DNA of 64,000 bases from Viridothelium virens (Eukaryota; Ascomycota; Dothideomycetes; Trypetheliales; Trypetheliaceae): assembly GCA_010094025.1 (NCBI GenBank), contig ML991797.1, positions 124,001 through 188,000 of the forward strand, read 5' to 3'. Positions within the stretch are counted from its first letter, which is position 1. Each line of letters begins with the position of its first letter. The notes under the pieces were generated by a model. That model did not search any database. It saw nothing but the letters and a program-made list of their open reading frames with translations, and was not told the origin of the DNA. Shown here piece by piece: positions 1,055 to 61,600 of the stretch. The translations under genes and the position numbers were made by a program.

Positions 1055-3269
1055 ATGGCCGACTTCGAACTTTCAGAGAGTTTCATTCCAGCTCTCCATA
1101 AACCATCGTCTCTTTTACCGATTGCTCGTCATCGTGAAGCTCTTCTCTACCTCATCGATACCTTTCCCGTGGTCATAGTTGTAGGTCAGACGGGAAGTGG
1201 AAAAACAACTCAAATCCCTCAGTTTCTGGAGCAAGCAGGATGGTGCAACGACGGAAAGATTGTTGCTGTCACGCAGGTCGGTGGGTCTTCGAACCAGAAC
1301 ATACTACTATTCAATGATCAGGACTAAAGACATTCCTAGCCACGAAGGGTTGCAGCGACTACAGTTGCTACAAGGGTGGCTGAGGAAATGAGGTGTAATT
1401 TGGGTCAAGAGGTAAAATGCTCGACTGCATTAGTGTTGCAACCACTGACCCAATGTAGGTTGGCTATTCAATCAGGTTTGAAGATGTTACCTCTGCCAAA
1501 ACCCGAGTCAAATTTCTTACAGATGGACTACTTCTCCGGGAGGCACTGGTAGATCCTCTGTTATCAAGATATTCCGTAATTATGGTCGACGAAGCCCATG
1601 AGCGATCTTTAAGTTCCGACATCCTGCTAGGAATCCTCAAGAAAATTCGCAAGAAACGACCTGAGCTGAGAATTATCGTTAGCAGTGCTACCTTGCAAGC
1701 TGAGGACTTCCTTCGATTCTTCGTAGGCGATTCAGCAGAGTCTACCAATGGATCTGCAGCCAAGAACAATGGGGATTCTGAATTGGGCGGTAGTGTCGGC
1801 CGAATTATCAGCCTCGAAGGGCGAATGTATCCTGTCGATATACATTACCTCGAAGAGCCTGCAGAGGACTACGTCGAGCGCGCTGTGCAGACAGCTCTCG
1901 ACATTCACACTCAGGAAGACGAAGGCGACATCCTCATCTTCATGACCGGACGCGAAGAAATCGACCGAGTAATCGAGATGATAACCGACAGAGCCCTCTC
2001 CCTCCCCAAAAGCACTTCCGCCATCCTCACCCTCCCTCTCTACGCCGGCCTCTCCACCGAACAACAAATGTACGTCTTCGAGCCCGCCCCCGAAAACACC
2101 CGCAAGATCATCGTCGCGACCAACATCGCCGAAGCCTCCGTCACCATCGACGGCATCGTCTACGTCGTCGACCCCGGTTACGTGAAACTCCGCGCCTTCA
2201 ACCCGACCACCTCCATCTCCACGCTAACCGCCGTGCCTATCTCTCACGCCTCTGCCACCCAGCGCGCCGGCCGTGCCGGCCGCACCCGTCCTGGCAAGTG
2301 CTACCGCCTCTACACCGAAGACGCCTACACGACGCTGCTGCCCGCCGCCACAGTCCCCGAGACCCAGCGCTCGGATCTCGCGCCCGTGATCCTGCAGCTG
2401 AAGGCGCTGGGGATCGACAACATCGCGCGCTTCGACTTCCTCACGCCGCCGGCGGCGGAGCTGGTCGTCCGCGCCCTCGAGTGGCTGTATGCGCTGGGGG
2501 CGCTGGACGAGTATGCGAAGTTGACGCGGCCGATGGGGACGCGGATGGCGGAGCTGGGGGCGGTGGAGCCGATGATGGCGAGGGTGTTGCTGTCGGCGGA
2601 GGGGTTTGGCTGTCTCAGCGAGGTGTTGTCCGTTGCGGCGATGATGAGTTTGGGCGGGGCGGTGTGGGTGGTGAGGGAGGGGGAGAAGAAGGGGGTGGAG
2701 GGGGCGAGGAGACGGTTTGCGGTCGAAGAGGGGGATCATTTGACGTTGTTGAATGTGTATCAGGGGTTTGTGACAAAGGGGAGGAAGGAGACGAAGTGGT
2801 GTCGGGAGAATTATCTGAATTATAAGAGTATGGTCCGTGCGGTCAGTATACGGAGTCAGTTAAAGAGGTACTTGGAGCGGTTTGGCATGAATGTAGACGA
2901 GAGCTTACGAGGGGAGGAGTTGCTTCTAAGAGTGAGAGGGCCAGACAAAGCAGAGCAGGTCAGGAGATGTTTGACGGCTGGCTACTTTGCACATGCAGCC
3001 AGAATGCAGCCGGATGGTTCGTTTAAAACAGTGAACGGCGGTACGGTGTTACATGCACATCCGAGCTCGCTCATGTTTGTAAGTTCATCCCAACCAACTT
3101 CGTATTGCGGTGCTAGTTTGCTAATGCAACATAGAATCGGAAAGCGGACTGGATTATTTTTCATGAAGTCATGGAGACGGGCTCAAAAACTTTCATCAGA
3201 GATATCACGAAGATTGAGAAGACATGGCTCATGGAATACGCTCCTGACTTCTATCAAATCAGGAAATAA
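1055..3269 (+). CDS. DEAH-box ATP-dependent RNA helicase, DHX35 type
   Basis: Predicted 3'-5' RNA helicase of the spliceosome-associated DEAH class; human DHX35 is the closest family I recognise. Four exons close in frame: 1055-1276, 1340-1411, 1459-3078 and 3135-3269, giving 682 residues (human about 703). Visible motifs: Walker A GQTGSGKT at 44-51, PRRVAATTVA after the first intron, DEAH at 142-145, SAT at 174-176, then QRAGRAGR and the HA2/OB-fold C-terminal part. The end reads EYAPDFYQIRK. Bases 2000-2750 have extreme GC-rich codon use that changes from C-ending to G-ending codons, unlike the flanking exons. Prp2/Prp22-type paralogues are longer, which favours DHX35. Confidence 0.92.
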
Positions 3270-3575
3270 AAAGGATGACACGATTTTAAGCCTTGCGAGT
3301 TTTTGACCGCTTGTTACCTTAGTTGTCTTCGTTTTGTGGATCCCTCTGAATCCTTTTCTTCAGCCATTCACGTATCGTTTTCAACCGTGCGTACCAGTTG
3401 AGCCACCTGATCTCGATTGCATCCCTTCTGCTCCAGAGTACCTCTATCATATCCATTCGAGCCATCTTGTAGTAAAACCATGTTAACCGGTTTACCGCTT
3501 GCACGTAGAAATTGAGAGTTTGCCGTCGAAATTCACGTGACGTCAAATTTGCTCCTCGCTGGGAGAAGGCAGAAT
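3270..3575. other. Convergent intergenic stretch, probably 3' UTRs
   Basis: The segment lies between two convergent stop codons. A 75-codon open frame on the minus strand (3546-3319) is present. It has no recognisable motif and sits where the 3' UTR of the PITH gene is expected, so I do not call it a gene. Confidence 0.4.
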
Positions 3576-5419: not shown

Positions 5420-5938
5420 GTCCTCTGGGACTGGGGATTTAACAGTAGGGAGTACATTTGTAAAATGACGTTTAGGTATTTCCTTGCATGTGGCTTGTTT
5501 GTGGCTGAGCCCGAGGCTCTGAGACGTCCCATGTCCACAGGTTTCGGCTCCTTGCGAAGACCTCACAACATCACGCTTGAAACAGGGATCAAAGGAGGAT
5601 CAAATGGGAAAACCAATAGCCCTGTTTTGCTTTTGGAGTATCGTGAGTAAGGTATTTACCGGAATTTGAGCCGTGGGGGCCCTCGGCAAGATTTCCGATC
5701 AGCTCCGACGTTTCAATATAACTCTGCTTATGACGGCCAAAAGCATAATTACCTATTCGGTAGGAAGTGACTTGAGACCCTGTGCTTGGTTGTGGGTCCC
5801 ATGGGTGGACAATGACACATGTTGACTAGTGCGTACACACATGTAGTTATCTTGACCTTCACTTTCCCTCCAAGACTGAGAATCTACACCACAACCCATT
5901 TTTTTTCCCTCAACGTCATTACCTCCAAATACTTCATC
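5420..5938. promoter_or_regulatory. Divergent promoter region, Vps20 and Rix7 genes
   Basis: These 519 bp lie between two opposed start codons. A pyrimidine-rich run (ATTTTTTTTCCCTCAACG near 5900) lies just before the Rix7 start, as is common for ascomycete transcription start regions. No other feature stands out. Confidence 0.45.
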
Positions 5939-8557: not shown

Positions 8558-9529
8558 CTACTGTACTTTCACTCCGAGGAGACCCTCAGCATTTTCGAAT
8601 GCAATTTTTCGGTACTGTTCCTCGCTGACCAGTCCACTCTGCTGTAAGTCCTTCATAAACTCCACTCCCCACTGATTATCGGCGAACGGATAGTCCACAC
8701 TATATAGAATCCGCTCGATCTTCGTGTTCCTCAGAATGCAAGCCATTGGGTCCACGCTCCATACTCCACTCAACGTGATCCAGATATTCTCATCGTATAC
8801 TTGCTTGAACTTCCTCTTTATTTCTCCCCAACGTACGGAAAGCTGAGCGATCCGCCCAAGCATGAAGGGCAACATCTCCCCAAAATGGCCCACAATGATC
8901 TTTAACTTCGGGTACGCATCAAACACCCCCGCCGCAAACAGTCGGAGCACATGCAGCGCGCACTCAGAATGCCACCCAAACCCGGACGTGCCCATACTGA
9001 TGCCCGCTCCCATGGGGAACTCCCCCATATAATGCTTCATCAGCTGCTCATCCGGGAAATTCGGGTGCAAGTAGATCGGCACATCCAGCTTCTCCGCCAT
9101 CTCGAACACAGGCCAGAAGTCCTTGCCGTCGTAGAATTTGCCCTTGACATGATTGTCGATCAACGCCCCGACAAACCCCAGCTGCTTGACGCTTCGCTCC
9201 AGCTCCGCTGCCGCCGCCGTGGGCTGCCCCATAGGCAGCGTAGCGAAGCCGGCGTAACGGCCCGGATGCCGTTTGATCGCGTCCGCGAGCTGGTCGTTCG
9301 CGCCGGCGTTTTCGGTGGGACCAAGAGAACAGCCGCCGGGGGCGTGGGAGACGACTTGGAGGGCGATGTTGGCGGCGTCCATTTCCTGAATGCGGAGGCT
9401 GTCGAGGTCGTGCAGCTGCTCTGCGACTTTGGGCAGGAATTTGAGCTGCTGAGAGTATTTGGCGGATTCGCCGGCGTCCCACATGGCCTTGGCCATGAAA
9501 TGCTCCTCGAGGGTGATGAACGGAACCAT
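8558..9529 (-). CDS. Amidohydrolase-2 family protein, resorcylate/dihydroxybenzoate decarboxylase-like
   Basis: Single-exon gene, 323 residues, of the ACMSD/gamma-resorcylate decarboxylase branch of the amidohydrolase superfamily. These enzymes use a divalent metal to decarboxylate hydroxybenzoates without oxygen. Expected metal and catalytic residues are visible: E8 and H10 in LEEHF, H155 in YLHPNFP, H215 in VGHFGE and D279 in YSVDYPF. The substrate cannot be read from sequence. A TATA-like element lies about 90 bp upstream. The GC-rich centre switches from C-rich to G-rich on the plus strand. It is separated from the polyketide block by housekeeping genes, so a link to that pathway is only a guess. 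Confidence 0.87.
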   Translation of the reverse strand: MVPFITLEEHFMAKAMWDAGESAKYSQQLKFLPKVAEQLHDLDSLRIQEMDAANIALQVVSHAPGGCSLGPTENAGANDQLADAIKRHPGRYAGFATLPMGQPTAAAAELERSVKQLGFVGALIDNHVKGKFYDGKDFWPVFEMAEKLDVPIYLHPNFPDEQLMKHYMGEFPMGAGISMGTSGFGWHSECALHVLRLFAAGVFDAYPKLKIIVGHFGEMLPFMLGRIAQLSVRWGEIKRKFKQVYDENIWITLSGVWSVDPMACILRNTKIERILYSVDYPFADNQWGVEFMKDLQQSGLVSEEQYRKIAFENAEGLLGVKVQ

Positions 9530-11120
9530 TTTGAGAGATTTTGCTAGATGTGATGGGAAAGTATCAAACTGACTGAGGTTGTTTGCTCAGAGAAAAGTGA
9601 GGTGAGACTGTGGGATAGTATATAAGAGAGCGGCGCTCAGCTCTCCGCAGAGCTTAAACGAATTGCGAGCCTGCTTGGGTAGCTTGAATCGCAATGGATT
9701 AGCTTCAGGTTGGTTCTAACGCCTTGGGTACTATCAGCGGCAACCCGACTCATTGCGAAGGCGTTGGTTTATCTACTTGGGTATTCACATAAAGTTCATG
9801 GGATTGAATCCGTCAGCTTCACCGCTTCCTAGGGCGTTCCATGCGGTCCGAGCCGTTCCGTTGTTCAAGCTGCGTAAGGTAACACCGGTAAGGTACGTAA
9901 TTAATGCGGCATCGTGTGTATGGCGTTTTGGAAAGACCATTTTCGTGCCGAAGCGTATGGAGGTAGCCCTTTCCTGGAGCGTGTTTAGATGCATTGCATT
10001 TGGTTTGATCTCAATAGATGGTCTCACAAGAGTCTACGTGAAGGCCTGCTGTGATCGCCTTAATGGGGCTGTCTTTTCATGACAGCCAGAGCTTGATAGA
10101 CAGCTATAGGAGCTACTTCCCAATACGGACAATAGATAGAAGACCTTGCTATATAGAAATAGAGACCCTTGCGAGCCACTGCCAATATCAGGCCCAGTAA
10201 CGACGGAGCACCTACAACCGTCTCGACGATGCTTCACGATGGGAAGATTCCAGGAGGTATGCAAGGTAAGTCAGTAGAAGGACTGTGCATAGGCTCGCCA
10301 ATGGAATTGATGTCTGCTAGATGACAACAGCGCCAACCTACCTCTGCCTCCTTTCTCCCCGGCGCTGCCCGTGTCAACGGCAATGCTAATGACCATCCAC
10401 GAACGGCTTAAAAACAGTCATGCATGATGGGAGAGAAGTCGCGGAGGGCAAAAGTTACCTGAATCCCACTGTTTGTAGACCGTGGCACTCAGGTTGAAAA
10501 GCAGGCAAGTCTTTAGGCACGCGACGCCGCCCTCGTTCCTCTACCTAGATGCGGGACTGGACTACCCCACCGCATTCAGGCGTGAGTCTGCTGCGCCATC
10601 CACGATCTTAGGCTGGACGATGCAAACATCTTGTATTTCGTAGATATAATCTCTCTAAGTTTAGGAAAACTGGCATAAGATTCAGTATCAAAATGGGGAT
10701 TTTGAGGCATAAGATGGTGGTGGATCAGGAAATGTTGAATCTCTGTTGAATCTCTATTGAACCTCATGATTGTCTTTCTTTTATGATGTAGGCTCTATCT
10801 GTGAGAATGTGCAAGGTTAGGTTGAAAGCGGTTGCGGCAACATAGAGTTGATGTGCCACGAGAACATTAGGAAGTAGAAGGGCATGTATACTTAGCGTGG
10901 TAACCACTAATGATCCACTTTTCCCGTAAGGTAAAGCGCGGAGGTGGTATTGAGTTGAGCACATAACCAAGCTGTGCGCATCATCGTAAATACGATGCTG
11001 CCATAAGATTGTGATTGCGATCGCGCCTGGACAAGCATACCCAATATAAAAATCCCATCCTAGCAGAGGCACATGCCGGGTAAATTCGCCTTCAAAAATG
11101 CGCCAGGGGTAGAAAGAGCT
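9530..11120. other. Gene-free stretch of 1.6 kb
   Basis: The part near 9530 is the promoter of the amidohydrolase gene and the far end is the 3' side of the GcvT gene. Open frames of up to about 110 codons occur on both strands, but none has splice-linked continuation, family motifs or clear coding bias. I see no gene. Confidence 0.45.
9619..9626 (-). promoter_or_regulatory. TATA-like element upstream of the amidohydrolase gene
   Basis: TATATAAG on the plus strand contains TATATA on both strands and lies about 90 bp before the ATG at 9529. Position and sequence fit a TATA box, but no experimental start is known. Confidence 0.35.
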
Positions 11121-12881: not shown

Positions 12882-14313
12882 ATGTCAAGGTCTCAAAGCT
12901 ACTTCCTCGTATCCTTGCCAACCTCAATATCTTCCTCGAACAATAAAGACGAAGCCTTTCAAGCAATACAAGCCGCTGTACAGTCCGATTATGGAACCAC
13001 CTACCCATTTTCGATACCGGGATTCAAGATAGGAACCCTAGATGCGCTAGTCCAGCAGGCAGATGACCTATCGAAGCTTAACGCAGCTTGTGAGAGCGTG
13101 GTAAACAAGGTCGGGGATTCGCTGCGGGGGTTATTAGAGGGGGACGAAGAAAAGATAGCACAACAAAAGACGATCAATGATAGTAGGGCATACTTCGAAC
13201 GTGGCTACAGAAGATACATAAGGGCTGATTATCTTCGCAAGAACCCGTGGACCAGTACCTGCAATCCTTTTCCTGGAATCGAGTAAAATACCGAGCAGAC
13301 AAGCCACTTGTCGATCTGATAGATTCACTGCAAAAGGTACGTCTCGTCCTTTCTGTATTAAGATCTGAGCTCATGAATCTACGATATAGGACGCAGCTAG
13401 CATTGACAACGATGTCAAAGCCAAATTTCAACAATACAACCAAGTCAAGCAGAACCTAGCCGCCTCCCAAAGAAAACAAACGTACTTCTTACCTTCCCCC
13501 TACCCCCTCCTCACTCCTCACCTCCAACTAACGCTCTCCTCCCAGTGGCAACCTCTCCACCCGCTCCCTCGCCTCCATCGTCGACCCCAACCTCCTCATC
13601 ACCGACTCCGACTACCTCGAAACGCACCTCCTCGCCATCCCCAACACCTCCGTCAAAGAATTCCTCAAAGCCTACGAGACGCTCTCGCCCATGGTGGTGC
13701 CGCGGAGCTCGGTGCTCGTGGCGTCGGACGACGAGTTCGCCCTCTACGCCGTCGTCACCTTCAAGAAGCACTCGACCGAGTTCGTGCACAAGTGTCGCGA
13801 GCGGCGGTGGACCCCGCGCGACTTCAAGTACAAGGAAGGGAGCAAGGAGGAGGAGCAGCAGGAGATTGATCGGTTGGGGAAGGAGGAGCGGAAGTTGTGG
13901 GGGGAGGCGTTGCGCTTGGGCCGGACGGGGTATAGTGAAAGTGCAATGGTGTGGGTGCATGTGCTGGCGTTGAGGGTGTTTGTGGAGACCGTGTTGAGGT
14001 ATGGGCTGCCGTTGGAGTTTGTGTGTGGGCTTGTGAAGGTGAGTCGGTTACCTCTGGAGCTCTTTCCCTATGTGGGGGTTCTGAGTTCATGGAGTTACAA
14101 ATTGGCTGACATTGGAAGTAGACAAATCCGAAGGTGCTCAAGAAGGCGAAGGCGAATCTGGATTCGAACTTCTCGTATCTAGGCGGGAACGCGTTCGGGC
14201 GGGATAAGAAGGGACGGGTACAACAAGACACAAATGTGGGGGCCGATGCAGCGGCCATGCAAGGTACGGAAGATTATACGGCGTACGTGTATTACGAGTT
14301 TGAAATATTATAG
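12882..14313 (+). CDS. vma5: V-type proton ATPase subunit C (Vma5)
   Basis: Subunit C links the V1 stator stalks to V0 and leaves the complex during reversible disassembly. Five exons (12882-13182, 13242-13336, 13390-13481, 13546-14038, 14122-14313) give 390 residues, the normal length. Diagnostic segments include the N-terminal YFLVSLP, the join at INDKPVDQYLQSFSW, RADKPLVDLID, VPRSSVLVASDDEFALYAV, RERRWTPRDFKY, and the C-terminal AYVYYEFEIL. Intron 1 runs from GTAGGG to CGCAAG. Exon 4 shows the C-rich then G-rich switch described in the findings, and its opposite strand shows spurious long frames for that reason. Confidence 0.95.
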
Positions 14314-14431
14314 GCCGCTGTAGCGTTTTGATATAATGCAATCGCCCCTGAGCGTCAACACTAAATGCCAGGTCTGTCAGGTTGCTCCTGTGTAATGCAT
14401 ATGCAAAATTCTCTTCTTGTTGCGAGTGTAT

Positions 14432-25688: not shown

Positions 25689-25846
25689 AGCTTCAGCTCT
25701 CAATCACTCACAGCTCTTGATTGACGTATAGATGGAGGAAAAGGCATTTACAAAGACGCGTCCAGATTTTACAGGTCGTGTGCGCACTGGTATTGATGAC
25801 AGCGTTGTACAGGCTTGCTGCTCTAGATATCGAGGTCAGAGCTCGA

Positions 25847-27283
25847 TCAAATTTTAGACGTCTTCTCTTTAGGTCCTCTCCACACCCAATTCTTCAGCAG
25901 ATCTATCCTTGCCTTCATCCTCCGCACAACTTCTTCCTCAGAAAGCTGAAAGAGGCCCTCAAACGGCATCTGCTTAACTTCTAGCTTTCCAAGCTGCACG
26001 ACATTCGCGCTCGAAGTGTACTGCTCACTCCCCGTGCCGATCTCCCTACACGCCGCGCCCCATAGCTTCATGCAATGCTCCGCCTGCGGCATACGCGGCA
26101 TCACCACCGCAAAGCTATGCACCATATGTTCATACTCATAATACCGCACCTTCACGCCAGACTCCCAAAGGCTTTTCACAAAGTATCTAATACCGTCACA
26201 GTATCGCTCGTGCCCACAAGCAATCCACATCGGTGGCATCCCCCTCCAGTCCCTCCACGACGACGGCTGTATAAGCGGATGCCGCATCGCACTCACATCG
26301 ATATATATCTCCGCTCGCGGAGGGTTTGATGGCCAGAGAGAATCGGCAGGGAAGTCATCGCGGAACCAAGGACCGCGCTCGGGCATCCAATCGATCTCTT
26401 CGTGTGCTTGCGCGGCTGGAAGTGCGCTCAGGAGATCGCAGGGTGGAGAGACGAAAGCGCAGCCCTTGGGCATGCGGAGGGGAACTTGCTGCCCATTGAT
26501 TTGAATCGTTGGGTTGGTGATGCCGTTCTGAGAGGCCTTTTGGATGTGGTGTTGGAGGAATTGAAGGACTGCGAGGTGGAGAGTTGAGCCGCCACTTTCG
26601 CCGGCGAGGATCAGGGTGCTAGGATCCACTGGGTCGTGTAATGCGCCCTTGGGGGGAGCGATTAGGTAGAAATATCCGACAAGTGCGTCTTGAATGATGG
26701 TCGGAAGGGTGTATCGTGGAGCTAATCGAGTTTGCATGGTAAAGACGCGAGATCCGCTATATTGAGAAATTTGCTGAATTAATGGCCTCGAGCCTGGAGG
26801 CCCTACTCGCCTACAGATTGCGGTCAGGCGTAATTGGAAGATGGAGATTCTTGACGCGATGGTCAAAGGTCTTACTCACATCCATCCTGAGCCAGACAGG
26901 TAGAAGATGGTAGTAGAATTGCTTCGGTCGCACTGCAGACCATTGAACTGATCAAGCTCACTCAACTGTTTCTTTTCAACCACGGGATTTTTCCTGAACC
27001 CAATCCACTCTCCATGAAGGGGTACAGATGCTACAGGATAGTCCAATTTCTCCGTTCCGTCGCCTCTTTGCTCAAAGACCTCCCAGAGCCTGGAACGAAG
27101 CTCTGTATCCTCATCGGCGTGGAGAGCTGGAATGCTGGCTGTGCTCAGCCATAATGAGCCTTTAGACTGTCTTGGACGAGCCGCATGTTCCTGAAGCTTG
27201 TGGACGGGGACCAATGCTGGATTGCGTCTGAAGTTCTCACGGAATTTGCGTACTGCATCCCTCTGATCCTTGGCTGTGGCCAT
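25847..27283 (-). CDS. Alpha/beta hydrolase, HSL/esterase (fold-3) type with altered oxyanion motif
   Basis: Exons 27283-26880 and 26810-25847 join in phase 2 to give 455 residues. The nucleophile elbow GESGGS places the catalytic Ser at about 207. An acid candidate lies in HERYCDGIRYF and the His in EHMVHSF. Where relatives have an HGGG oxyanion segment this protein has FYLSGSGWM, so it may be an odd esterase, a lactonase-like enzyme or a non-canonical hydrolase. Length and the RLAPRYTLP segment fit the fungal branch found beside biosynthetic genes. It sits tail-to-tail with the O-methyltransferase and is co-oriented with the MFS and PKS genes. The gene shows the C-rich to G-rich switch at about 26,340. 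Confidence 0.82.
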
Positions 27284-44410: not shown

Positions 44411-44926
44411 ACTCGTCGGAAGTATTTCAGCATGGACATTTTCCATCGCAGTCCTTCGGAAGGACGCAGAAGACTTGAGTTTCTCTCCATCTGAGACAGA
44501 TTGCGAAAGCATCGAAGGAGAAAATTTGGAAACTCCAAGGATATCCAGGCGTCTGAAATGTCCTATCAAACGCGTAAGGCTGTGGGGTCAGGCAGCCTCT
44601 ACCCACACAAATCAATGAGTCAGCATCAGTATGTGGTAAGAATGTCAAAAACGATTGCATCTGCAATGTCTGTAGAGGACCAAAAATATATTAGCAAGTC
44701 GAGGGGAGTTTTTGAGTGCCTCAGCGGCGTTGGCGCTCGCTAGTACGGTAGCTTCCTTAGCTTACAAACGTAATATCAGTACCTTACGCTGCACTGTCAC
44801 ATTTATGACTTCACCATGGAGCTCACCCAAGGCTTTGTCCTGATCTTCCTCCGTCCTCAGACCCTTCCATCATGACCTGAGCTACAAAGCCCTAATTGCG
44901 TTACGAGAGTCGACGAGAGCCCGGCA
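44411..44926. other. Intergenic stretch of 0.5 kb
   Basis: 3' flank of the NACHT gene and promoter of the carrier gene. No gene is seen. Confidence 0.5.
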
Positions 44927-46098
44927 ATGTCCCATGGCGTCCCCCAGCGCAAATCATCATCCTGTAAGACCACCCATCCACACCTTCAATTCTCCTCCAC
45001 CCTCATCCATAAACCCCTCCACCCACCAAACTCGCCTCACCAGAGCAACAAAAACTCACCCGCCCCCTCCCAGCCTTCCACTTCGCCGCCGGCCTCCTCT
45101 CCGGCACCTTCACCGCCGCCCTCCTGCAACCCGCCGACCTCCTCAAAACCCGTGTCCAGCAATCCCACTCCACCTCGCTGACCTCCTCGCTACGCGCCAT
45201 CGCCGCCGGCCCATCCCCTTTGCGGCAACTCTGGCGGGGCACCGTGCCGTCGATCTTGAGGACGGGACTCGGCAGCGCGCTCTACTTCAGCGGGCTGAAC
45301 GCGCTGCGCCGCGGCGTGTCGTCCGCGTCCGGGTCTGAAGCTGTGACCAACGGCAATGGTAAGGTCGGCGCTGGACGTCGCGAGGGCGCGGGACGAGATG
45401 GCGAGGAGGGGGAGAGGGAGGGGTTGCGCTCGTCGAGCGTGCTGCCGAGACTCAGTAGTGGTGGGAATATGCTGACGGGTGCCCTGGCGCGGGCGGCGGC
45501 GGGGTTGGTCATGATGCCGATTACGGTCATCAAGGTGCGGTATGAGTCTTCGTACTACGCTTACAGCGGTTTGGCTGGTGCGGGTCGCGATATTTTGAGA
45601 ACGGAAGGCGTGGGTGGGCTGTTCAAGGGATGGGGCGCCACGGCTATTAGGGATGCACCGTACGCTGGATTGTACGTGGTGTTCTATGAGGAGGGAAAGC
45701 GGAGGTTGGCGTCCTTATCTGCCTTTGGCGGATTACACGAAGATGGAGGGGATGCAGAGGGTTGGAGTGGGAGGAGGAGGGAGGGCATGACGGCTAAGGC
45801 GTCTGCAAGCATCAATTTCGTCTCGGGGATTCTGGCTGCCGCACTGGCAACCGCAATTACGAATCCATTCGATGCAATCAAGACTCGGTTACAACTCATG
45901 CCTGCGAAATACGGGAATATGCTCTCTGCGGCAAGGACGATGTTGAGGGAAGAGGGGACGAGGAGTTTCATGGATGGGTTGGGGTTGCGAATCGGGAGAA
46001 AGGCTGTGAGCAGTGCTCTTGCCTGGACTGTGTACGAAGAAGCGATTCGGAGGGCGGAGATGAAATTTATAGAGAGGAAGGAAGAGGAGGTGCTTTGA
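44927..46098 (+). CDS. hem25: Mitochondrial glycine carrier, Hem25/SLC25A38 type
   Basis: Inner-membrane carrier that imports glycine for heme synthesis. Exons 44927-44963 and 45074-46098 join in phase 1 ([15 protein letters not shown]) to give 353 residues. The three carrier signatures are present: [12 protein letters not shown] in repeat 1, [12 protein letters not shown] in repeat 2 and [12 protein letters not shown] in repeat 3. The short N-terminus before the first helix and the [15 protein letters not shown] segment are characteristic of Hem25. A Gly/Glu-rich insert of about 35 residues ([17 protein letters not shown]) lies in the loop after helix 2, making it longer than yeast Hem25 (about 301). 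Bases 45000-45550 show the C-rich to G-rich switch. Other carriers are less likely. Confidence 0.88.
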
Positions 46099-46422: not shown

Positions 46423-47736
46423 CTAGCGTCTCACGATTTCCATGACTTTAACCGCATCGCCAGTCGATGGGCTGCGTGATTTATGTCTCACCCAGGCGTA
46501 CTTCTTTTCTGGCTTCTTCTGCTCAATCAGCAGCCGCTTGCCACGATGACGGCGCGTATGTTCGAAGAGGACGTCGGTTTCGTGACGGTCCATTTCACGA
46601 AGGATTATGATGTAATTGGGATCAGTCTAACTTGAGTGTTAGCTAAGTCATTTTCGTCCCTAAACCGGGAGGAGTATTCATCAGGAGGGGAAGCATAAAG
46701 ACCGACTTACCCTATCGAACTCATAAGGGAGATTATAATAAATCAATGTATCCACACTTAGGTACTCCTTATGAATCTTCGGATACGTGGGCTGTTGGAA
46801 TGGAACCGCCCTAATCTCTCTTATTTTTTCCTTCTTCTCTTTCTTGTCTTTCTTCTCATGCGGATGCAGTGCCTTCTCAATTTCATGCTCCGTATATCCT
46901 GCCTTTCGCAACCTCTTCACCATCAGTTCTTCCGCCCTCTCCTCCTCTTCTTTCTCTTCCTTTTCCTTCTTCTCCTTCTTCAACTTCTGCTTCAACTCCC
47001 ATTCTTCCTCTTCCTTCTTCTCCTTTTCCTTCTTCAGTTTCTGCTTCATTTCCCACTTCTCCTCCTCCTCCTTCTCCCTTTTCTTCTTATCTTCCTCCTC
47101 ACGCTTAATACTCGCGCGCAACTCCATCTCCCTCTCCTCCTTCTCCTTCCTCTCCTTCTCCTGCTTCATCTTCCACTCCTCCACCGCCCTTTCCTTCTCC
47201 TTCTTCTCCTTCTCATCCCTCCTTCTCATCTCCGCCATCGCCTTTTCAATCCGATCCTCCTCATCCTTCCTCATCCGATCATCCCTCGCCCTCACCAACT
47301 CAATCTCCCTGTCCATCTTCTCCTGCTCGCGCGCTCGCTCCAACTCATACACTGCGGCATCGCTGCGCCCCCGACTCCGTGACCGTAGCCTCACCAGCTC
47401 GTCCCGCACGTCCAGGAGGTCGTCTTCAAGGACACTGCGACGGCCGCGGGGACTGCTCGGGGCCGGCGAGGGCGCGTTGTACGCGTGCGGCTCGCCCCGC
47501 TGCATTGCGTCTTGCGCGATGTCTTGATAGATGTTAACTTGGGGTACAGGCGCATGCCCTTGCGAGCGAGAGCGATGCAGACCGTTACCCCACATGTTAG
47601 CATCCGGATTCAGCCAGGCCTGCTGGTGGCGATGATAGGCGGCGGCGGGGGAAGGCCGCCGAGCACGTGCTGGAGGTTGAGGAGGGTAGTGGTACCAATC
47701 ATCGTAGTCGTAGGGGCCGGGTGGGAAGGCCGCCAT
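46423..47736 (-). CDS. Charged coiled-coil protein of the DUF8035-like fungal family
   Basis: Exons 47736-46711 and 46626-46423 join without phase change to give 409 residues. The N-terminus is Pro/Tyr-rich (MAAFPPGPYDYDDWYHYPP), then comes an Arg/Ser-rich linker, then about 170 residues of Lys/Glu/Arg heptads predicted as a long coiled coil. The C-terminus has YPKIHKEYLSVDTLIYYNLPYEFD and, across the splice, DPNYIIILREMDRHETDVLFEHTRR, which I recognise as the conserved ending of fungal DUF8035 proteins. Function is unknown. The second exon is too short to stand out alone and would be missed without the splice. Long frames on the other strand are shadows of the purine-rich coiled coil. Confidence 0.78.
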
Positions 47737-49407
47737 GGTGAGTGTTGGTAGAGATAGCCTTGCGCGGAGTTGGAGGTGGTCTATGCAGGGGGCACAAGGT
47801 GTTCTGACGGAGCTCTTTTCAGGAAATGTTCGTGTCCGTCTGCTTGACGAGTTTTATTTGCAGAGAAAAAGAAGGAAAATGGTGTGAAAGAAGTGAGAGG
47901 ATGTTGCCAATGGATTAGGCAGTCAATAATCCACTAATTTCGAATATGACGATATTGATAAGCGGAATGCGAAACGAGCCTTATAGAAATTTTCAGCTAG
48001 GGCGTGCAGGCAACAAGGCAGTGAGTCAATATGCGAAATAGGCAAAGACGCGGCAAAAAATGGTGAGGCCCAGCGGCGAGGATGAGTTCGTGGGGGCCGA
48101 AACGGACGAGATGTATAGCCAAAGTCCGTGACCGGTTTGCCTATATTGACAGTAGAGCGCACGAGGGGTCAAGCAACACGTAATGGCTATGCTGAGTAGA
48201 GAGGGTGACTTGCAGACGGTGCGATGGAAGCCAGGCCTCCAACGTGATCGCGACGGTGGCGGTACGGAATGAAGGAGATGAGACAGCCTCGTTCATGATG
48301 CGATGGGTGGTCCCGCGCCCTTTATCTCAGCTCGCTGCTGGCTGCGGCTCTGATGGGCTCTGATGCTGAACCACGGTGTCACTCCGTCCGCCATTAAGCT
48401 GTGCCCCAGTACTAGGTACTTGGCTTCTCCACCATGTTGGGCTGCAGTAGCGCCCCTGTTCTCAAGCGGCCACAACACCGTAGTCGCATATGCTAATACT
48501 CCCAGACCGGCTGCTTGCTTCTCGTCCATTGCCATTGGTAATATTCAGATGCCGACGCTTTTCTGTTATCACCAGGACAACTCGTCAGGGAACACTCGGA
48601 AGCCCGGAGATGCCTCTAGCAACAACTCAGGAGTGAGTGCCATGGAGGCTCTAAGAGAAGGTAACGATGCATTCAGCACAGTGGAGTTCCAAAATTGTTA
48701 CAGTTGTCGCTAGGATCCTAGATCCGATGCTGATCTGTGCTGGGAATAGCCGGCGACAAGTCTCCCTATTTTTGCGCAGTCGCGGCAAGCCAATCTTCAG
48801 CTGCGACCTCTTCTGGCCAAGTTTCGAAAACTAAGGCCACTTTAAGCGAACAACATCACTAAGGCGACAAACTGTTCGCCATCATCATCTCGAATTCTCC
48901 ACTTGAAGCCCGGCCGAAACACAGGAGACTTTAGCATTCATACGGAATAGATTGGCGGCAGTTCCTGTCATTTGCCGGCGCTTCAACATTGGCAAACCAC
49001 AGCCATGGGATCCTACATCCTTAAGCCACTCGGCTTTAAGCTGAAGTCGCGCGAATGAAATGATAATCGGTCATGTGAAGCACACGACCGCTAGCTGTGC
49101 TCTGCAACTGATCGCGCGTTTACCGTACATTGGACTGTGGCGCTACCGTTCTGCGCCTCCACGCACAGCCGTCTTGATTGCTCTCGTCCTGTGGCGTGAC
49201 AGCTACCACCACCCTGTACATATCCGGCATTCATAAGAAAAATACCGCACAGAATTTATGACTGCTAATAGGGTCAGCCGCAGGCTTCGATCCTGTGTAG
49301 ATCCCGGAGATGCAGATTCCTGCAACGCTCCCTCATATTGCGGCACTGTCACCTCCCTGCACAGTGACGTCATTCTTCAAGGCAACTTGCACGATGCGCC
49401 TTGCTGC
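47737..49407. other. Gene-free stretch of 1.7 kb
   Basis: The left third is the promoter and leader of the coiled-coil gene. Short frames on both strands have no motifs and no splice continuation. I see nothing else. Confidence 0.45.
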
Positions 49408-54145: not shown

Positions 54146-55214
54146 GTGAGCCCAATGCTGATTGTAGGGCTAAGATGTATTGCGGCCAATGCGGCTTTAG
54201 CTCGGAGTTCGAGGACAAGCCAACGGAGAATTTTTACTCAGCTTCCCCGGCATAGGAGTCTCGAATCGGGAATATATATACAAACAGCTCGCGGATTACC
54301 TAGTCTGCGGCGTGTCTATACCTCTGGAGCTGGTCAGTATATCTGGCATGGGCGCATTTCGTGAAGTAAAACTGATAAAAGTTCAAGATCCCTCGTCATC
54401 ACCCAGTGACCAGCCCAACTCCCAAGAGACCCTCAACAACCCTCGCAAACGTTCTTTCCTCAACCGTACAGTGCGATTCCTCCTCTTCTCCATCTTCTTC
54501 ACCTCCGCCGGCTTCGTCATGGCCACCGCCCCCATCGCCCCCACAATCAACGGCCTCCTCAACCCGCCCACAGACGCCGAGTCCCTTGAGCTCTACGACC
54601 CCCCCAACCCCACCGCCGCCTCCATCAACGCCCTCATCCTCTCCCACCCGCTCTCCCAATCCCTTCGCGCCGACCCCAGCTTCGCCGAGTCCCGTCCCCA
54701 CATGAAAATCCCACCCGCAGCACGTCCCAACAACCTCACGGGCGGCACGCTCCTCGGCGACGACAAAGTCGTGGTGCCGCCTCTCGTCTTCACCGAGGCG
54801 GAGGGGAAGTCGCTCGTCTCGCTGCAGTATCTCGGGTCTGCACTGTGCGGGCACCCGGGAATCGTGCATGGGGGATTGTTGGCGACGCTGCTGGATGAGG
54901 GGCTCGCGCGGTGTTGCTTTCCTGCGCTGCCAAATCGGGTTGGGGTCACGGCGAGTCTGAATATTGCGTATAAGAAGCCGTGTCGGGCGGGGCAGGTGGT
55001 GGTGCTGAGGGCGACGACGGTGAAGGTGGAGGGGAGGAAGGCGTGGGTTGAGGGGCGGATTGAGACGCTGGGGGAGGTCCTTGAAGAAGAGGAGGAGGTG
55101 GGGGGAATGAGGGTGAGGAAGGTGGGGGAAGGTGAGGTTTTGTGTACCGCCGAGGCGTTATTCATTGAACCGAAGGCGGCAGCGACGATGCCGAGGGTGT
55201 ACTCGACGCAGTAG
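54146..55214 (+). CDS. Mitochondrial hotdog-fold thioesterase family protein
   Basis: PaaI/4HBT-like hotdog protein with a mitochondrial-type N-terminus. Exons 54146-54332 and 54382-55214 join in phase 1 to give 339 residues. The first exon reads MSPMLIVGLRCIAANAALAR with many Arg and Ser and no acids, as in a matrix presequence. A hydrophobic segment follows (FLLFSIFFTSAGFVMATAP), so it may be anchored in the inner membrane. The hotdog core holds the family motif GHPGIVHGGLLATLLDEGLAR, with the HGG turn, then VEGRKAWVEGRIETL. A start at 54312 would drop the presequence, so 54146 is preferred. The coding strand switches from C-rich to G-rich near 54,790. Confidence 0.82.
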
Positions 55215-55861
55215 GATAGGGGTGACGGAGAAGAGATGATATCAGGGATGGCAATCGGTTTTAGTCAACGAAACCTACCTGTGTGATGCGAAATACGTGG
55301 GCCGTCTTGCATTCGACACAGATTTTGAACCATACCGAAGGCTACTTATGAGGTCCTCGGCTAATTCAGGCGTTGCGGGTACAGGGATTGCTCATTCACA
55401 CTATAATAAATGTGTAAGCTTAAACACAACGATAGATATAGATTTCATTTTCTTCCACGGTAGCTGACAGCGAGAACTAGCCGGATCTAGCAACACCACC
55501 TCTAACACTTCAGACCTTCGAAGATCACCAGAAACAGCGGCAGGCGCTCCAGCCTACTGACACTTCCGTGTGATAGCGAACCATGTTACGTGACCTTACT
55601 GCATTCACCACATGAAGACCATACGTGACAAAGCCCATAGGCCTCAGAACCGGACTGGCCGCCATGTTCACTTCCACACGCTCGGGGCACCTCCGGTGAC
55701 ACTTGTCCGCTGTCTTGGATTTTGGCAAAATATAAACGAGCTACAAGTCTAGCGGAGGTTGCGAACAGAAGCAGCTGCCTGTAGGGCAAATCCTATCTCT
55801 CCTTCGTACGGGCAGTGAGGCCACCAGCTTCGAACGGATTGTATCCTTCCCTATTCCCACG
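55215..55861. other. Intergenic stretch of 0.65 kb
   Basis: 3' flank of the thioesterase and promoter of the next gene. No gene is seen. Confidence 0.45.
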
Positions 55862-56970
55862 ATGTCTCAATTTTCACCGTCAAGAGGTAAAGACCTTTCA
55901 TTGTTGTGCTCCGTAGTGAGCCTCGGTTTTTTATTCCTATTCTCCTCTATGCAACCTGGGAGGCCCCAACCATCGCAAAACTCCTCCTAAGCTTCGCTTA
56001 TCCATGTACAGGTACGACCGTTAACGCCTCGCCATCTATTAACTTAGAGGCTATCGAGGCCTGGTACGTCGTTCGATTAGCTCAATACCACTCTGAAAAT
56101 GCCGGGATAGCGGCTGCCAATGCTGAGCTCCAGGCGACCACGGTCATGAGACCAGGTGTTCGGAATGAAGAACTGCATTATTACATACAGACACTGCGGC
56201 CCCAGCCCGCTACTCAACTTACTCCGCCAGCAGCTACCGGCGTACGCCTCTTCCAGATGGCGAGTATTAGATTCCAAATTTGCGAGACCCGACGCATGCT
56301 CCAGAACTTGACCCCTATACCTGAGGTCTGTCTCCTCGTTTCCTTCATTCGCCAACCCGTCTACCGAATAGACACACTCGTTACTTCTTACGCTTACACC
56401 TCCCTCCCAACTGCCAACTTCGCTTGTCTTTACCTTGTAGCATGGTACAAGCATCATTTCCCCCGGCCTCCGACAGCTTATCCGCATTACATACCCTTTT
56501 ACAACATCACTAACAAGGGTGAACTCACTCTCTCCGTTACTAAGCCTCCCCAAGACGCCTCGGATGAGCATACGAGCAGATTAGAGAATGAGCTCCCTTC
56601 TCACGTCTTCCAAACATTCCGCCGACCGATAGCAGCAACCGTGGAGGGGCAACAGTTGGGGAGCATGGTCTATGTCATACATCAGACGAAGACAACGGTC
56701 AGCGAATTGTCCATTCAGGAGACAGAGCAGACTGAGTTTGCAGTCGGAGAGGTGCATTCGACATTGGAAGGGGCGATCAGGGCGTGCCGGGAGGGAATGT
56801 ATGGTTTTGAGGTGGCGTTGTTGGGAAGAATGCATAGCGGTGTGTTGATGCCAAGAGAGACGTTAACAGTAGAATGGCGAGGGAAAGAAACTCCGGATGA
56901 ATGGTCCCCGGAGTGGAAATTTATGGTTGTAATTGAGGCGGTCGCCGTAAGAAGGGAGTCGACGGGTTAG
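55862..56970 (+). CDS. Hypothetical protein, about 327 residues
   Basis: Not recognised. The best model starts at 55862 (MSQFSPSRG) with exons 55862-55886 and 56012-56970 joined at GTTVNASPSINLEAIEAW. This gives 327 residues and removes a hydrophobic upstream stretch that would otherwise look like a false signal peptide (frame from 55906). The protein has no clear membrane segment and few charged repeats. It contains a helix SINLEAIEAWYVVRLAQYHSE and a late WSPEWKFMVVIEAVAV beta-like segment. Long open frame and normal codon use support a real gene. No operon-like relation with the neighbours; the function is unknown. Confidence 0.6.
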
Positions 56971-58675
56971 GGAGAGAGAGTTCGGAAATGCATATGCGAT
57001 GGGCTGAGTCGAGCGAGAGTGATTAATTCTCCTCGAGGGACCGTTGAGATGCAGAGTTGCCGGGAAGGGAAGGTGGATTGAGGCAAATGACCATCATGAT
57101 CCCCTTATCCCCCTGCGAGTAGATATCTCCTTGGCATTTTTTGATACACTCTAAATTGCCTCCCGGAGATACAACAAGAAATGTCGGCAGGCTACATTCT
57201 ACAAGGCATAGGATCTTGGTTGGGACTCCCTGAATTGTAGAAGCTGACATACGACATTGAAGATCCTCTTCTGGTTCTAGTTTTTTTTTACTCCTACGAG
57301 GCTTTCTCTGTTCTTCTGTGTAGGTGAAATTTGCTAAATCATCCCGATAACGTACAGGTCAAAATATCAGCAATCTTCAATAGCATCAACATTCCTTATT
57401 TCGCCATTTGGCACTGTCATTCTATTCCGTACTACGACTATACTACATTACTAAGTTACGACAAGTTCAATGGAAGAGAAATGGCCAGAGGACGTAGCTC
57501 GGCAAAATTTGTCTATACCTTAAAACCTAAATCGACTAAAACCTAAATCGACTTAAGTAGATTCCCAAGAATAGCTCAACCAAGCAACCAGTCCAAATCA
57601 CCAATGGCGGCTTGCAAAGTCGTGTCGCAGCTTCTAAGCGTAAAAGCCATGCTGCACATAATGATACACATCCTAGGAAAATGCCGGAAGGTCTTGAATA
57701 CTAGCGTCATAATATCTAGCGATGGCTTTTACTGCTAGCTTCTAGAGAAAAACCACGAAGAGCTCATCACCTATTACAAAGCACGGCAACGTGCCATTTC
57801 GTGGGATTCACTCGTATATGCACGTTTCAGAGCGAGAAAAGAGACAAGTTCTCTAAAAGAAGCACGCCAGTCGAGATCTTCGTCAGCAGATTTGCAGCAC
57901 ATGCCTCATGCTCGGCGTTGGCTCGGAGGGCGCACTGAGCATAGTGGATGAGATTTGTCAAGATGAACGTGGACAGCGATGACAAGGGCTGATATATGCG
58001 TATATCCACTAGACCCAAAGAATGTTCGAGTACACTTGCGGGATCGTGAGTTGCATGCTATCTGGAGTCAAGCTTGAATTTAGTATGCAACGAACCCTCA
58101 GAAATTGCGGCCTGGATTAAGTCCGTAATCATCGTGGCAAGAGGAGGTACCTGTCTTGCTCGGATCTGTGAAAATTTCATGCCCTCTGCTGTAGGTGGGT
58201 GCGAAGATCCTGCTTGACAAATCTGACTCAGAGAAGACGTAAAGGATAAAAGCAACGTTATGAGTCCACCTATGTAACTCCTATTTCAGTCGACTAGTCA
58301 AATCACACGAATTACAATAGAGAACTTGTGGTTGGCTTTGATGTAAATAGTAACTAGAGTACACTGATCTTCGTACCCTGTACAATCACAGTACGTACAT
58401 CGATCCAATCGATGTCCACGCACAGAGTGGTGTGAGGATCGTGAAGCAAAAGCCAAAGCGAGAGAGGAGACAACCCGTGTTTCCTTGCAAAATTTTCAAA
58501 AACACCATCAAATGCGAAGAATGCTAAACGAAGAAAAGCAGAATTCCTCGGCCATCATATGGGTAGTCCCCTCCAGGAAGAACGCCAATCATCGTAAGAC
58601 TAGACCCCAATATCTACATCAAAATACTCCTCCCTTCTATATTCAACTCATGACCCTCCTCCCTGACCAATCCTC
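56971..58675. other. Gene-free stretch of 1.7 kb
   Basis: Contains a 75-codon frame on the minus strand (57250-57023, MSASTIQGVPTKILC) that might be a small protein but has no recognised features. A 15-bp unit (AAAACCTAAATCGACT-like) is duplicated at 57523-57555. The rest, AT-rich in part, shows nothing I can name. Confidence 0.4.
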
Positions 58676-61600
58676 TCACCTCATCCCCTCCCACCCACTA
58701 ATCCCCTCCAACATCTGACTCCAATCCCCACCGCCCAGCCCCCCCGGCGTCAACCCCGTAGAAATATACCCCGTATGCGGATTCTGCGTCATCGCCGTAT
58801 CAAGGCTCCAATCCGTAAACCCCGCGAACGCCGCTGCCCCATCATCCTGCGGCTGTGGCGGCGGCGGCGGAGCGCCCCCTCCCGGATTCGAATCCGTGTC
58901 TGGGTTGCCACCGCCTCCGCCGCCACCGTCACCGCCACGCACGTGCGACGTGTTGTGTGGCGGAGGCGGCGTGGTGTAGAGCTGAGCAGTGAAGTCCTCG
59001 AACTCCTGGCGCGTGCCGAAGATGCCGGCGCCGCCGGCGGAGAAGTGTTCGGGCCCGGGCCCGGGCGCTGGGTGGGTAGAGCGGGAGAGGCTGTCGTCGG
59101 GGCGTGGATGTGGCGAGTAGGAGGTCGAGGTGCGGCTGCTGGGAGCGGCTTGGTGCGATTGCTGGGTGGAGGGGGTGGCGTGGTCGCCGGTGCCGGAGTG
59201 CGAGTCGGGGGAGGTGTCCATGCCGTCGGCGTCGGGGCCTCCAGTCAAGTCGAGAGGGTTGTTGAGGGAGGAGTTGCGTTGAGATGGGAGGAAGGGGGAG
59301 TTGTTGCGTGATGAGATGAAGGGGCTTTTTTGCTGAGAATGTTGGCTTTGGAGGAAGGGGCTGCGTTGTCGGCTTGGGAGATCCATTGGGGGGCTTTCGG
59401 AGCTGGTGGTGCCCATCGGGAAGCGGGCTGATCCTCTGGCAATATTGTTGCCTGTGGATTCGAAATCCATCGTGTAGGGGAAGTTTGAGAGATTGGAAGC
59501 GGGGACATTGGGGATGGCGGAAGCTGAGAATTGGTCGAAGGAAGACTCGCTTTGAGTATAGCCAAAGTTGCCCTGGGTCGGTCTCGCATTTGTGCTGGTG
59601 GGGTGTGCTCCCTGGGCTTGGTGATCTCGAACCTCGAAGATTGGAACACAAACGACGTCATTTGTTATTTGTTCCTGCCAAAACCTGTTAATAAATGGTC
59701 CAGCATGGGGTGGGATACAAAGGAACTTACAGAGACTACTGCAGAATATTGATTGGTTCTTCCTGCGTAACTCGTGAAACTTTCTAGTTCAGTGCCTTCT
59801 AGATCGACGTCGAGTTGGATCAGGAAGGAGTCTGTCAACGGATTTCGTCGCCTAAGGGCTTGCATCGCGGTGAGCAGGAATTGTAAGGATGACCTGACTT
59901 GCTGGTCTTTCGGTCGGGACTTAAGATATTGCACAAACACCCGTGCAGCGACGTAGAGACAGAAGGACATAAAGGGACTCATCTGAAGCCAAGATTAGCG
60001 AGTCAGGCGCATTCCAGAATGCCTTACATGGCAGATACAAAGCTTACCGCTGAGAGATCCATATGGCTGATCATCCGCATAATGCTTGCAATCTCGGCAG
60101 CTGCTGTTATACATCGTACCTTGCTCTCAGCTGAGACATTCGTGGGGAGCTTGTTCCTATCTGCTTTAAAGATGGCTGCTTGGTGTAGACAAATTGCTGA
60201 TGTGTGAATGTTCATGTTGAGAAAGATGATATTAGGATCGCCAATTCCAGCAGGTAAGCGTAGGTGATCGGGCATGGCCAGCGAGGTATTGAGAAGAATT
60301 TGTTCCATACTCCGATGGCGCTTCCAGAACTCTCCGTTGAGGTCGTCCTCGTTGTCATCGGGAGTTGGGCGATGGAGATGAAGGAGATTACGGCCAAATA
60401 AGCAGGAAAGCACAATCACTCCTGAGAAGGGCGAAAGAGATGAAGCACCGTTCGGTGTTAGAGCTTGTTCCAAAGATATTGATCGCTGTGGTTTGCTCTT
60501 TTCAAAAGCCTCTTCAGTGGATGGAAGGTTGGTCATGATCTGGGGTAGACATGTCAGTAGCTCAAACGCAAGACTACAGATTGTTATCTCACATCTCGTT
60601 CATCTATTGTCATTGGCCATCCGGTACCGATGCTTGCGTATCTATCGGAAGCAAAGCATGCCCAGTACGTCCGTCTTCTTTCTTCTCTCTCAGTCCAATC
60701 TCTCGGGGGAGGAATGCACTGCTTCACATCTAAGCCTTCACCGTCTAGCCGATGAAGACCCATCATCTGTGCCAGTCTTGTAGCCCTTCCTGTGCTTAGC
60801 CATGCACGTGGAAAGTACATGTTTTTGAATTCGTAGGCAGCAACAAGAACACAGGCCTGACAAGAACCCACAGATATTATACCTTCTCCATGCCCCCGCA
60901 TTTCGTCGTTCTGGAGATACTTGCGGGCACGTTCGTAAAAAACACTGTGCATGCCATCGTATTTGTCAGTCGTCGAGGCTGCAAGGCACCATATCATATA
61001 TCGAAGAGATATTGGTGGACGCATCTGAGGGGATAGATTCAACGCAGCTAAATAGCGTGGCCGATGTATTAGTGGCATGGCAGGATGGACTTTGTCGAAG
61101 AAGATCTGATGTCTGTAGGAATGTTAAAATCGCGCAAGATCCAACTTCATGAAGCATGACCTACAACTCGTTCATGATATCTTGACTTGGTAACGGCTCT
61201 TCCAGACCCAAGCCAATCATCTCCCATGGAAAGGAATCCTCACCCTGCTGATCGATTGACATGTCTCCAAGAGTACCGGCAAAAGCGTCTGGGTTGGGCA
61301 TGCTGCTGGTGCTAGCGAGTCTTGAGATGGCTTCCATGGCGTGATTGTTTCCTTGCCCCGCTGATAGGCTTCCGTTCTCGGTTGCCATATTTAGTGATGG
61401 TTGGTGTATGGAAGAACTGTTGAAGTCCAAAGAATTCGCAGTTGGTCCATCCTTGTTTGTTCCGTCTCCATTCTGGTCCTTGAGGAGAGTTTCTACCTGC
61501 GCTGAAATACGTAGCTGAAATCAGTCTGTGCCACACAATAATACCCAGCGAAAAAAGGAGGATGCGCCTACCTAGCCGTGCTTCCAAAGCCTTTACGTAT

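Follow-up and report, generated by a model that had tools for sequence, protein, structure and literature searches.

GC-biased gene conversion is usually described as symmetric between the two DNA strands. In the GC-runaway genes of gerbils, a close likeness to what we describe here, a local rise in guanine plus cytosine (GC) content prevails over the choice of codons, and even of amino acids, in conserved genes that are unrelated (PMC7403616; PMC6573468). Here we analyze islands inside genes of the ascomycete Viridothelium virens in which a GC peak coincides with a flip of the plus strand from C-rich to G-rich sequence. They were pointed out, in an earlier note made from the letters alone, in a stretch of 64,000 nucleotides (contig ML991797.1 of assembly GCA_010094025.1, positions 124001-188000) that we call the window. 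The islands resemble the gerbil genes in the override of codon and residue choice, but the “GC skew” of the gerbil reports denotes GC bias, the parts of them available to us describe no strand flip, and the affected genes form clusters, whereas the islands are kilobase-sized and two-sided.

Other systems share further parts of the pattern. The hotspots of Zymoseptoria, also an ascomycete, frequently lie in exons and show no significant enrichment at transcription starts; however, GC-biased conversion is described there as extremely weak or absent and the accessible text reports no skew, whereas the islands are GC-rich and skewed (PMC5844332). Human meiotic hotspots show strand-asymmetric change on either side of the break centre, around a symmetric core, but the change is mutational, extends over 2-kb flanks and affects A and C on the resected strand, a polarity opposite to that of the islands as we understand the available part of that report (PMC7615360). 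At human constitutive origins, which are enriched in genes, a GC peak and a skew reversal coincide, as in the islands; in the portion of the paper we could consult they are analyzed over 20-kb origin domains, whereas island skew is confined to ~1.2 kb (PMC9645720). Finally, the centromeres of Candida albicans carry a very large skew jump (74%) that returns to average within ~3 kb and for which a replication link was judged unlikely, again as in the sections available; those flips are at centromeres, whereas the flips described here are intragenic, with one strong island per ~16 kb (PMC3459929). A literature search covering one open library and few subscription papers returned, among the best matches listed, no description of such two-sided skew islands within fungal genes. 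A study of mouse hotspots by Smagulova and colleagues from 2011 reportedly found nucleotide skew around hotspot centres and may be a precedent.

Skew Islands Recur in a Single Orientation

Flips were scored as C minus G in the left arm plus G minus C in the right arm, with 300-bp arms. We call an island strong when its C-to-G flip scores at least 0.2; the main count also demands a GC content of at least 0.55. The main sample comprised 314 kb: the window, which belongs to contig 27 of the 175-contig, 30.72-Mb assembly, together with parts of contig 1 (C1:1-200000) and contig 12 (C12:100001-150000). An extra 30 kb came from 10-kb pieces of each of three further contigs. Open reading frames (ORFs) stand in for genes, and intron bounds (GT...AG) were set by eye.

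In profiles of 500-bp windows, all eight switch points listed for the window reproduce, with GC skew passing from negative to positive at each and GC peaks of 0.58-0.69 over a background of ~0.48-0.50 (Table 1). The six stretches for which base counts had been given proved exact on recount (6/6). In island 1, for example, the left arm is C-rich and the right arm G-rich. Six of the eight islands are strong, the exceptions being islands 4 and 2, the latter the weakest. The pattern spans unrelated proteins on both strands, as the earlier note had it, and the Pfam matches of the island genes belong to unrelated families; a neighboring gene called Rix7 in that note, an AAA gene by its match (5816-7654), indeed lacks the pattern in the profile.

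Across the 314 kb, we counted 20 C-to-G flips that satisfied the main criteria and none from G to C. At a GC content of at least 0.58, the count is 19 against 0 (sign test, 4e-6). With 200-bp arms (score 0.15, GC 0.58) it is 25 against 4, and with 400-bp arms (score 0.2, GC 0.55) 18 against 1. When the GC condition is dropped, 22 C-to-G flips face 5 reverse ones at a score of 0.2, and 34 face 32 at 0.15. Nearly all of these reverse flips (4/5 and 31/32, respectively) have a C-to-G flip scoring 0.13 or more no further than 700 bp away, as the outer shoulders of islands would, while 23% of the sample is that near to one. Among the 36 GC peaks that reach 0.58, one is accompanied by a reverse flip of 0.15. 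Two of the three further contigs each contributed one more strong island, and none of the three showed a reverse flip of 0.2. With one strong island per ~16 kb of sample, extrapolation from the 314 kb indicates that there should be roughly 2,000 strong islands genome-wide.

Sixteen of the 20 strong islands are located in ORFs with a Pfam match. Their products are DHX35, V-ATPase subunit C, a mitochondrial carrier, a 4HBT protein, MCM3, an alcohol dehydrogenase, a P450, a short-chain dehydrogenase (SDR), a ubiquitin hydrolase (UCH), a SNF2 helicase, Med21, a NUDIX protein, Hikeshi, a pyridoxamine-oxidase-like protein, Rad4 and a DUF1774 protein. Measured along the ORF, the centres are 207-2573 bp away from the 5′ end and 198-1260 bp from the 3′ end, and several are deep in the protein by Pfam position (P450, UCH, MCM3, V-ATPase C).

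Shape and Base Spectrum

In the average of the 20 islands, skew reaches -0.55 between -300 and -200 bp and +0.53 between +200 and +300 bp, values that are inflated because centres were chosen at the maximal 300-bp-arm flip. Outside the detection arms, at 300-500 bp, skew still amounts to -0.28 to -0.34 on the left and +0.28 to +0.34 on the right. GC content climbs from 0.50 to a central value of 0.68. Little skew is left past 600-700 bp. At synonymous sites a weak remainder persists out to 1 kb (transition odds 1.27, interval 1.11-1.56). No consistent GC skew was found from 1 to 10 kb from the centre (18-20 islands), where the largest values were -0.038 ± 0.017 (-3 to -2 kb) and 0.047 ± 0.023 (1.5-2 kb).

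The effect is polar and goes beyond a mere gain of G+C: one strand favors amino bases, the other keto bases. At two-fold sites of the left arm, C is preferred over T (C share 0.81-0.89 within 450 bp; background 0.50) and A over G, the share of G being 0.30-0.40 at 150-450 bp (background 0.51) and 0.65 beside the centre. The right arm is the mirror image, with a G share of 0.78-0.93 within 600 bp and a C share of 0.20-0.39 at 150-600 bp.

We then folded the spectrum onto the C-rich strand, with a bootstrap over 18 genes, in bins of 0-150, 150-300, 300-450, 450-600 and 600-1000 bp. These 18 genes, which were also used in the other gene-level tests, are the 16 Pfam genes of the strong islands plus those of the two weaker window islands (amidohydrolase and alpha/beta-hydrolase). 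The symmetric GC-bias odds at synonymous sites are 3.3, 2.0, 1.6, 1.4 and 0.8 in the five bins. At these sites, though less clearly outside the ORF (see below), there is the local GC excess expected of GC-biased conversion, and it is gone beyond 600 bp. The strand symmetry expected of such conversion, on the other hand, is broken: odds for strand asymmetry of transitions are 2.5, 5.0, 2.8, 2.2 and 1.3, and the C/G ratio at four-fold sites is 2.8, 6.4, 5.5, 3.1 and 2.0, with A/T near 1. Since four-fold C/G reaches 6.4, transversions are affected too. There are two components, a GC gain that is highest at the centre and a strand polarity that is strongest at 150-450 bp. The observed-to-expected ratio of CpG, which together with high GC defines CpG islands, is 1.10 at the centre and 0.91 at 2-3 kb on the right side, against 1.10 and 1.06 for GpC.

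G-quadruplex motifs were also located in the sample. Twenty of the 30 in the 314 kb fall in strong-island arms, which make up ~8% of the sequence, and all of these (20/20) are on the G-rich strand.

Codon Shuffles and DNA Outside the Reading Frame

Comparison with synonymous-codon shuffles, a check proposed in the earlier note, leaves the observation standing. For each of the 18 Pfam genes, none of 500 synonymous-codon shuffles and none of 500 draws from background codon usage reaches the largest flip observed. Four strong islands lie in ORFs that have no Pfam match; three of these surpass all their shuffles, and the fourth, C1:68683, has p=0.03. Codon positions one and two are skewed as well.

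Close to the centre, skew is no weaker outside the ORF than in coding DNA. At 200-300 bp, C-skew on the C-rich strand is 0.60 outside (bootstrap 0.48-0.73; 8 genes, 453 bases) and 0.52 inside at all positions, or 0.70 at third positions; here “outside” may take in exons read in another frame. GC content outside is 0.55 over the same 453 bases and 0.45-0.48 at 300-600 bp, with only 2 outside bases nearer the centre. In left arms, C makes up 0.43-0.53 and G 0.05-0.10 of three probable introns. Among 13 introns and flanks picked by eye, all 13 are skewed in the expected direction (left, C 0.378 and G 0.116; right, G 0.339 and C 0.159), a set that left out the flanks of the P450, the left flank of the SDR, the flanks of the pyridoxamine-oxidase-like, NUDIX and DUF1774 genes and the right flank of Hikeshi. 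When all outside-ORF DNA within 600 bp is counted (18 genes, ignoring pieces shorter than 30 bp), the signal is weaker: C 0.262 and G 0.204 on the left, with 8 of 11 as expected, and G 0.269 and C 0.197 on the right, with 11 of 13. The process acts on DNA, though gene limits may matter.

Candidate Explanations

Something focal acts on the DNA at the centre of each island, reaches ~600 bp each way, tells the strands apart and raises GC. The likeliest explanation, to which we give slightly less than an even chance, is that the islands are the accumulated footprints of persistent intragenic recombination-break sites with mismatch-dependent repair of heteroduplex DNA. The break at the centre, the heteroduplex substrate, the donor direction and the evolutionary persistence are what we infer in this proposal. 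At a long-lived site inside a gene, the homologous chromosome would serve in the recombinational repair of DNA breaks, and the centre would be the break zone. Within ~600 bp on each side, the 3′-ended strand (top strand on the left, bottom strand on the right) would pair with the intact homologue, and mismatches in this heteroduplex would be converted to the donor sequence more or less efficiently according to their kind: G/T and G/G well, A/C less well, C/C poorly. The allele on the invading strand would set the mismatch, since T would face G where C would face A, G would face T where A would face C, and G/G would arise in place of C/C. T or G alleles on the invading strand would then be overwritten more often than C or A alleles, and C and A would gain there. 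C would accumulate on the top strand on the left and, by symmetry, G on the top strand on the right, while an added symmetric GC preference would give the central GC peak. A toy repair model, with numerical efficiencies chosen by hand, gives the same signs as seen in the arms.

Several observations are consistent with this proposal. A reach of ~600 bp is on the scale of recombination tracts. In yeast, G/T is the best repaired mismatch and C/C is repaired poorly, although the part of the source at hand does not settle the order of A/C and G/T in vivo (PMC3218862), and intragenic recombination hotspots do exist in Zymoseptoria, according to the portion of that study available (PMC5844332). In the V. 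virens genome we found one match over the cut-off to TP6A_N (Spo11/topoisomerase VI A) as well as two matches to the mating-type alpha box, L028 on contig C147 and L029 on contig C69, each with one stop inside the six-frame match that is possibly an intron. Together these matches indicate that the organism has meiotic break machinery. The alpha-box matches, a helicase of spliceosomal type and short GT-AG introns also accord with a fungal source.

A number of points weigh against heteroduplex repair. The sign of the polarity is fitted by the choice of repair direction, and restoration of the recipient would reverse it. Skew fades faster outside the ORF than inside, being 0.24 vs 0.37 at 300-400 bp, 0.14 vs 0.39 at 400-500 bp and -0.02 vs 0.27 at 500-600 bp (the intervals of the first two outside values are both above zero), which a process dependent purely on distance from a break does not predict; this may reflect gene limits, quicker loss of the mark in non-coding DNA or narrower islands near ORF ends. 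Of the 36 GC peaks mentioned above, 22 reach a C-to-G flip of 0.15 and 14 are without a clear flip. In yeast, hotspots go with transcription starts rather than gene bodies, as summarized in the accessible part of the Zymoseptoria study (PMC5844332). We detected no common motif at the 20 centres, the top 7-mers occurring in 12 of them when 50 Markov resamples reach 13. For insertions, 18 island domains set against 17 control domains show a trend toward a surplus and no more (p=0.085). Stretched island domains are those of Med21 (+50%), the pyridoxamine-oxidase-like protein (+52%) and Hikeshi (+26%). For this comparison 20 control ORFs were scanned, of which 17 had a Pfam match and were counted and 3 had none; some island genes (e.g., DHX35 and the mitochondrial carrier) were measured on the best Pfam stretch and not on the one spanning the centre, and unspliced introns could inflate island and control domains alike. 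Because the full count of outside-ORF DNA is weaker than the set picked by eye, we lowered our estimate for heteroduplex repair slightly, from an even chance to just under it, and raised those for transcription and for selection a little, each from a still smaller value.

The same sites could instead be shaped by mutation associated with recombination. An exposed strand, either the displaced strand of a displacement loop (D-loop) or newly copied DNA, would lose A and C to G and T, including C-to-G changes through translesion synthesis, and composition would reflect mutation and not transmission bias. Location and scale would be those of the heteroduplex proposal; the two-fold-site spectrum, with A-to-G and C-to-T changes on one strand, is deamination-like; the arm G-quadruplex motifs keep to the G-rich strand; and damage on the displaced D-loop strand would carry the right sign. 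Human hotspots show strand-asymmetric mutation and more insertions and deletions, as far as the available text goes, but their asymmetry, which as we read it hits the resected single strand, would turn the left arm G-rich, contrary to what the islands show (PMC7615360). It is in this form that the suggestion of strand-biased repair around recombination breaks, made in the earlier note, fits poorly, since damage to 3′ tails would, if we read that paper correctly, give the opposite polarity (PMC7615360, same part); as biased repair of heteroduplex, it fits best. In addition, the strong overall GC rise is not given by C deamination, and transversions are biased as much as transitions while A/T is unbiased. 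We judge mutation unlikely as the main cause. Replication initiation, which seems to us less probable again, would have bidirectional forks starting in gene bodies and leaving a GC peak with opposite skews. The change from negative to positive is the classical sign of an origin by the bacterial rule, and human constitutive origins are enriched within genes, with a GC rise, skews and G-quadruplexes that the accessible part of the report ascribes to initiation mutagenesis (PMC9645720). However, GC skew is near zero beyond 1 kb and does not persist over kilobases, as it would along arms replicated from an origin. In the comparison available in PMC3459929, origins of Saccharomyces cerevisiae have a jump of 9% that decays over ~20 kb, against ~1.1 within 1.2 kb in the islands (more than 10-fold, with differing window sizes); the yeast leading strand is enriched in A and C, a polarity opposite to that of the islands; and origins are spaced at 40 kb, less densely than strong islands. 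The replication-origin reading offered in the earlier note is accordingly disfavored for an ordinary origin, given the loss of skew past ~1 kb and the mismatch in amplitude and in yeast polarity. We rejected a standard origin as the main reading on the short skew range and the yeast polarity.

Two further explanations tie the pattern to genes and not to breaks or forks. If it arose from transcription or R-loops, the skew would track transcription starts, divergent cryptic promoters or some other property of transcribed DNA. In fungal genes C does outweigh G shortly before the start codon (PMC555766, from the part of the paper available), skew in the islands fades sooner outside the ORF than inside, and an AT skew of 0.078 ± 0.024 persists at -1.5 to -1 kb. 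The centres, though, sit 207-2573 bp into the ORF, counted from its 5′ end, several of them late in the protein (starts being unmapped), and the flip occurs within a single gene, alike for genes of either strand; we regard this explanation as highly improbable. Selection on protein sequence, on codon usage or on mRNA folding, in which a C-rich 5′ part would pair with a G-rich 3′ part, could draw on the skew of codon positions one and two, on the lysine/glutamate repeats encoded by part of the arm at 47390, and on the same faster fading outside the ORF, which leaves room for a gene-bound contribution. Against it stand the 18 of 18 genes that beat synonymous shuffles, the unrelatedness of the affected proteins, and outside-ORF DNA near the centre, including probable introns, that is as skewed as coding DNA. 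Because non-coding DNA near the centre is fully affected, selection on protein or codons is ruled out as the main cause, and we give selection in any of these forms hardly any credence.

Features of the Window and Side Observations

Table 1. Skew islands of the window and non-coding or probably non-coding DNA in their arms (positions in the window; GC and base contents as fractions).
Feature	Span	Centre	Strand	Score	GC or base content	Gene or ORF (positions, strand)	Evidence
Island 1	1886..3086	~2486		0.277	GC 0.667	DHX35-like DEAH helicase gene (1459-3306, +)	Pfam, PDB, shuffle p=0.002
Island 2 (weakest)	8619..9819	~9219		0.14	GC 0.613	Amidohydrolase gene (8558-9586, -)	Pfam, shuffle p=0.002
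Island 3	13178..14378	~13778		0.287		V-ATPase subunit C gene (13532-14182, +)	Pfam, PDB, shuffle p=0.002
Probable intron, left arm of island 3	13482..13545		+		C 0.53, G 0.05		
Probable intron, right arm of island 3	14039..14118		+		G 0.31, C 0.17		
Island 4	25719..26919	~26319		0.197	GC 0.573	Alpha/beta-hydrolase gene (25847-26875, -)	Pfam, shuffle p=0.002
Island 5	44620..45820	~45220		0.282	GC 0.665	Mitochondrial carrier gene (45013-46098, +)	Pfam, shuffle p=0.002
Probable intron, left arm of island 5	44966..45045		+		C 0.50, G 0.05		
Island 6	46815..48015	~47415		0.258		ORF without Pfam match (46681-47853, -)	Shuffle p=0.002
Island 7	54234..55434	~54834		0.302		4HBT thioesterase-fold gene (54201-55214, +)	Pfam, shuffle p=0.002
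Island 8	58339..59539	~58939		0.272	GC 0.678	ORF without Pfam match (58676-59788, -)	Shuffle p=0.002
DNA past the stop codon of the island-8 ORF, left arm (non-coding only if that ORF is the gene)	58560..58675		+		C 0.36, G 0.11		

In the left arm of island 6, tandem arrays at 46938-47227 that are pyrimidine-rich on the plus strand encode a lysine/glutamate-rich repeat. Because they sit in a lysine/glutamate-rich coding region, this arm is partly protein-driven. Elsewhere in the window, a strong C-to-G flip (0.217) without raised GC (0.51) is centred at 56641, in an ORF without a Pfam match (55891-56970, +). The right edge of the window (63500-64000) is C-rich (GC 0.586, skew -0.33) and is perhaps the left arm of a next island beyond it.

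In the wider sample, GC peaks without a flip lie, for example, at C1:46034, C1:60940 and C12:103010 (position 3010 of the contig 12 sample); these may form a separate class or result from islands that overlap. Low-complexity in-frame stretches (S/N/Q/A and glycine runs) occur inside the islands of conserved proteins, namely Med21 (L014:8435-9088), the DUF1774 gene (L023:7155-8276) and Hikeshi (L018:7070-8029). One scan of viral contigs yielded no relative; another, with MCM3 as query, returned 46 relatives there at 30-49% identity, which were not used for any conclusion.

Implications

Why gene conversion favors G and C is an unsettled question. If the islands are conversion footprints, their polarity would separate a symmetric GC preference from a strand-dependent one, and would do so with a distance profile. 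We tentatively put forward, as a claim that we hold to be somewhat doubtful, a strand-polarised gene conversion in which the repair bias depends on which strand carries which base, with perhaps two thousand genes bearing a two-sided footprint. Such footprints would reveal, in one haploid genome, the position of the break, the length of the heteroduplex and the preferences of mismatch repair. If this is true, the islands would directly record the reason for the GC bias of gene conversion, and a bare assembly would become a map of break sites, that is, a recombination map from sequence only. If they are origins instead, initiation in gene bodies with so strong and short-range a skew would be equally unexpected in a fungus.

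If the islands do stem from biased break repair, they would show how such repair rewrites ordinary genes. As conversion footprints, they would mean that the conserved proteins MCM3, Rad4, Med21, DHX35 and V-ATPase C have stretches with codons, and in part residues, set by repair rather than function, which would affect inferences about codon usage, selection and phylogeny.

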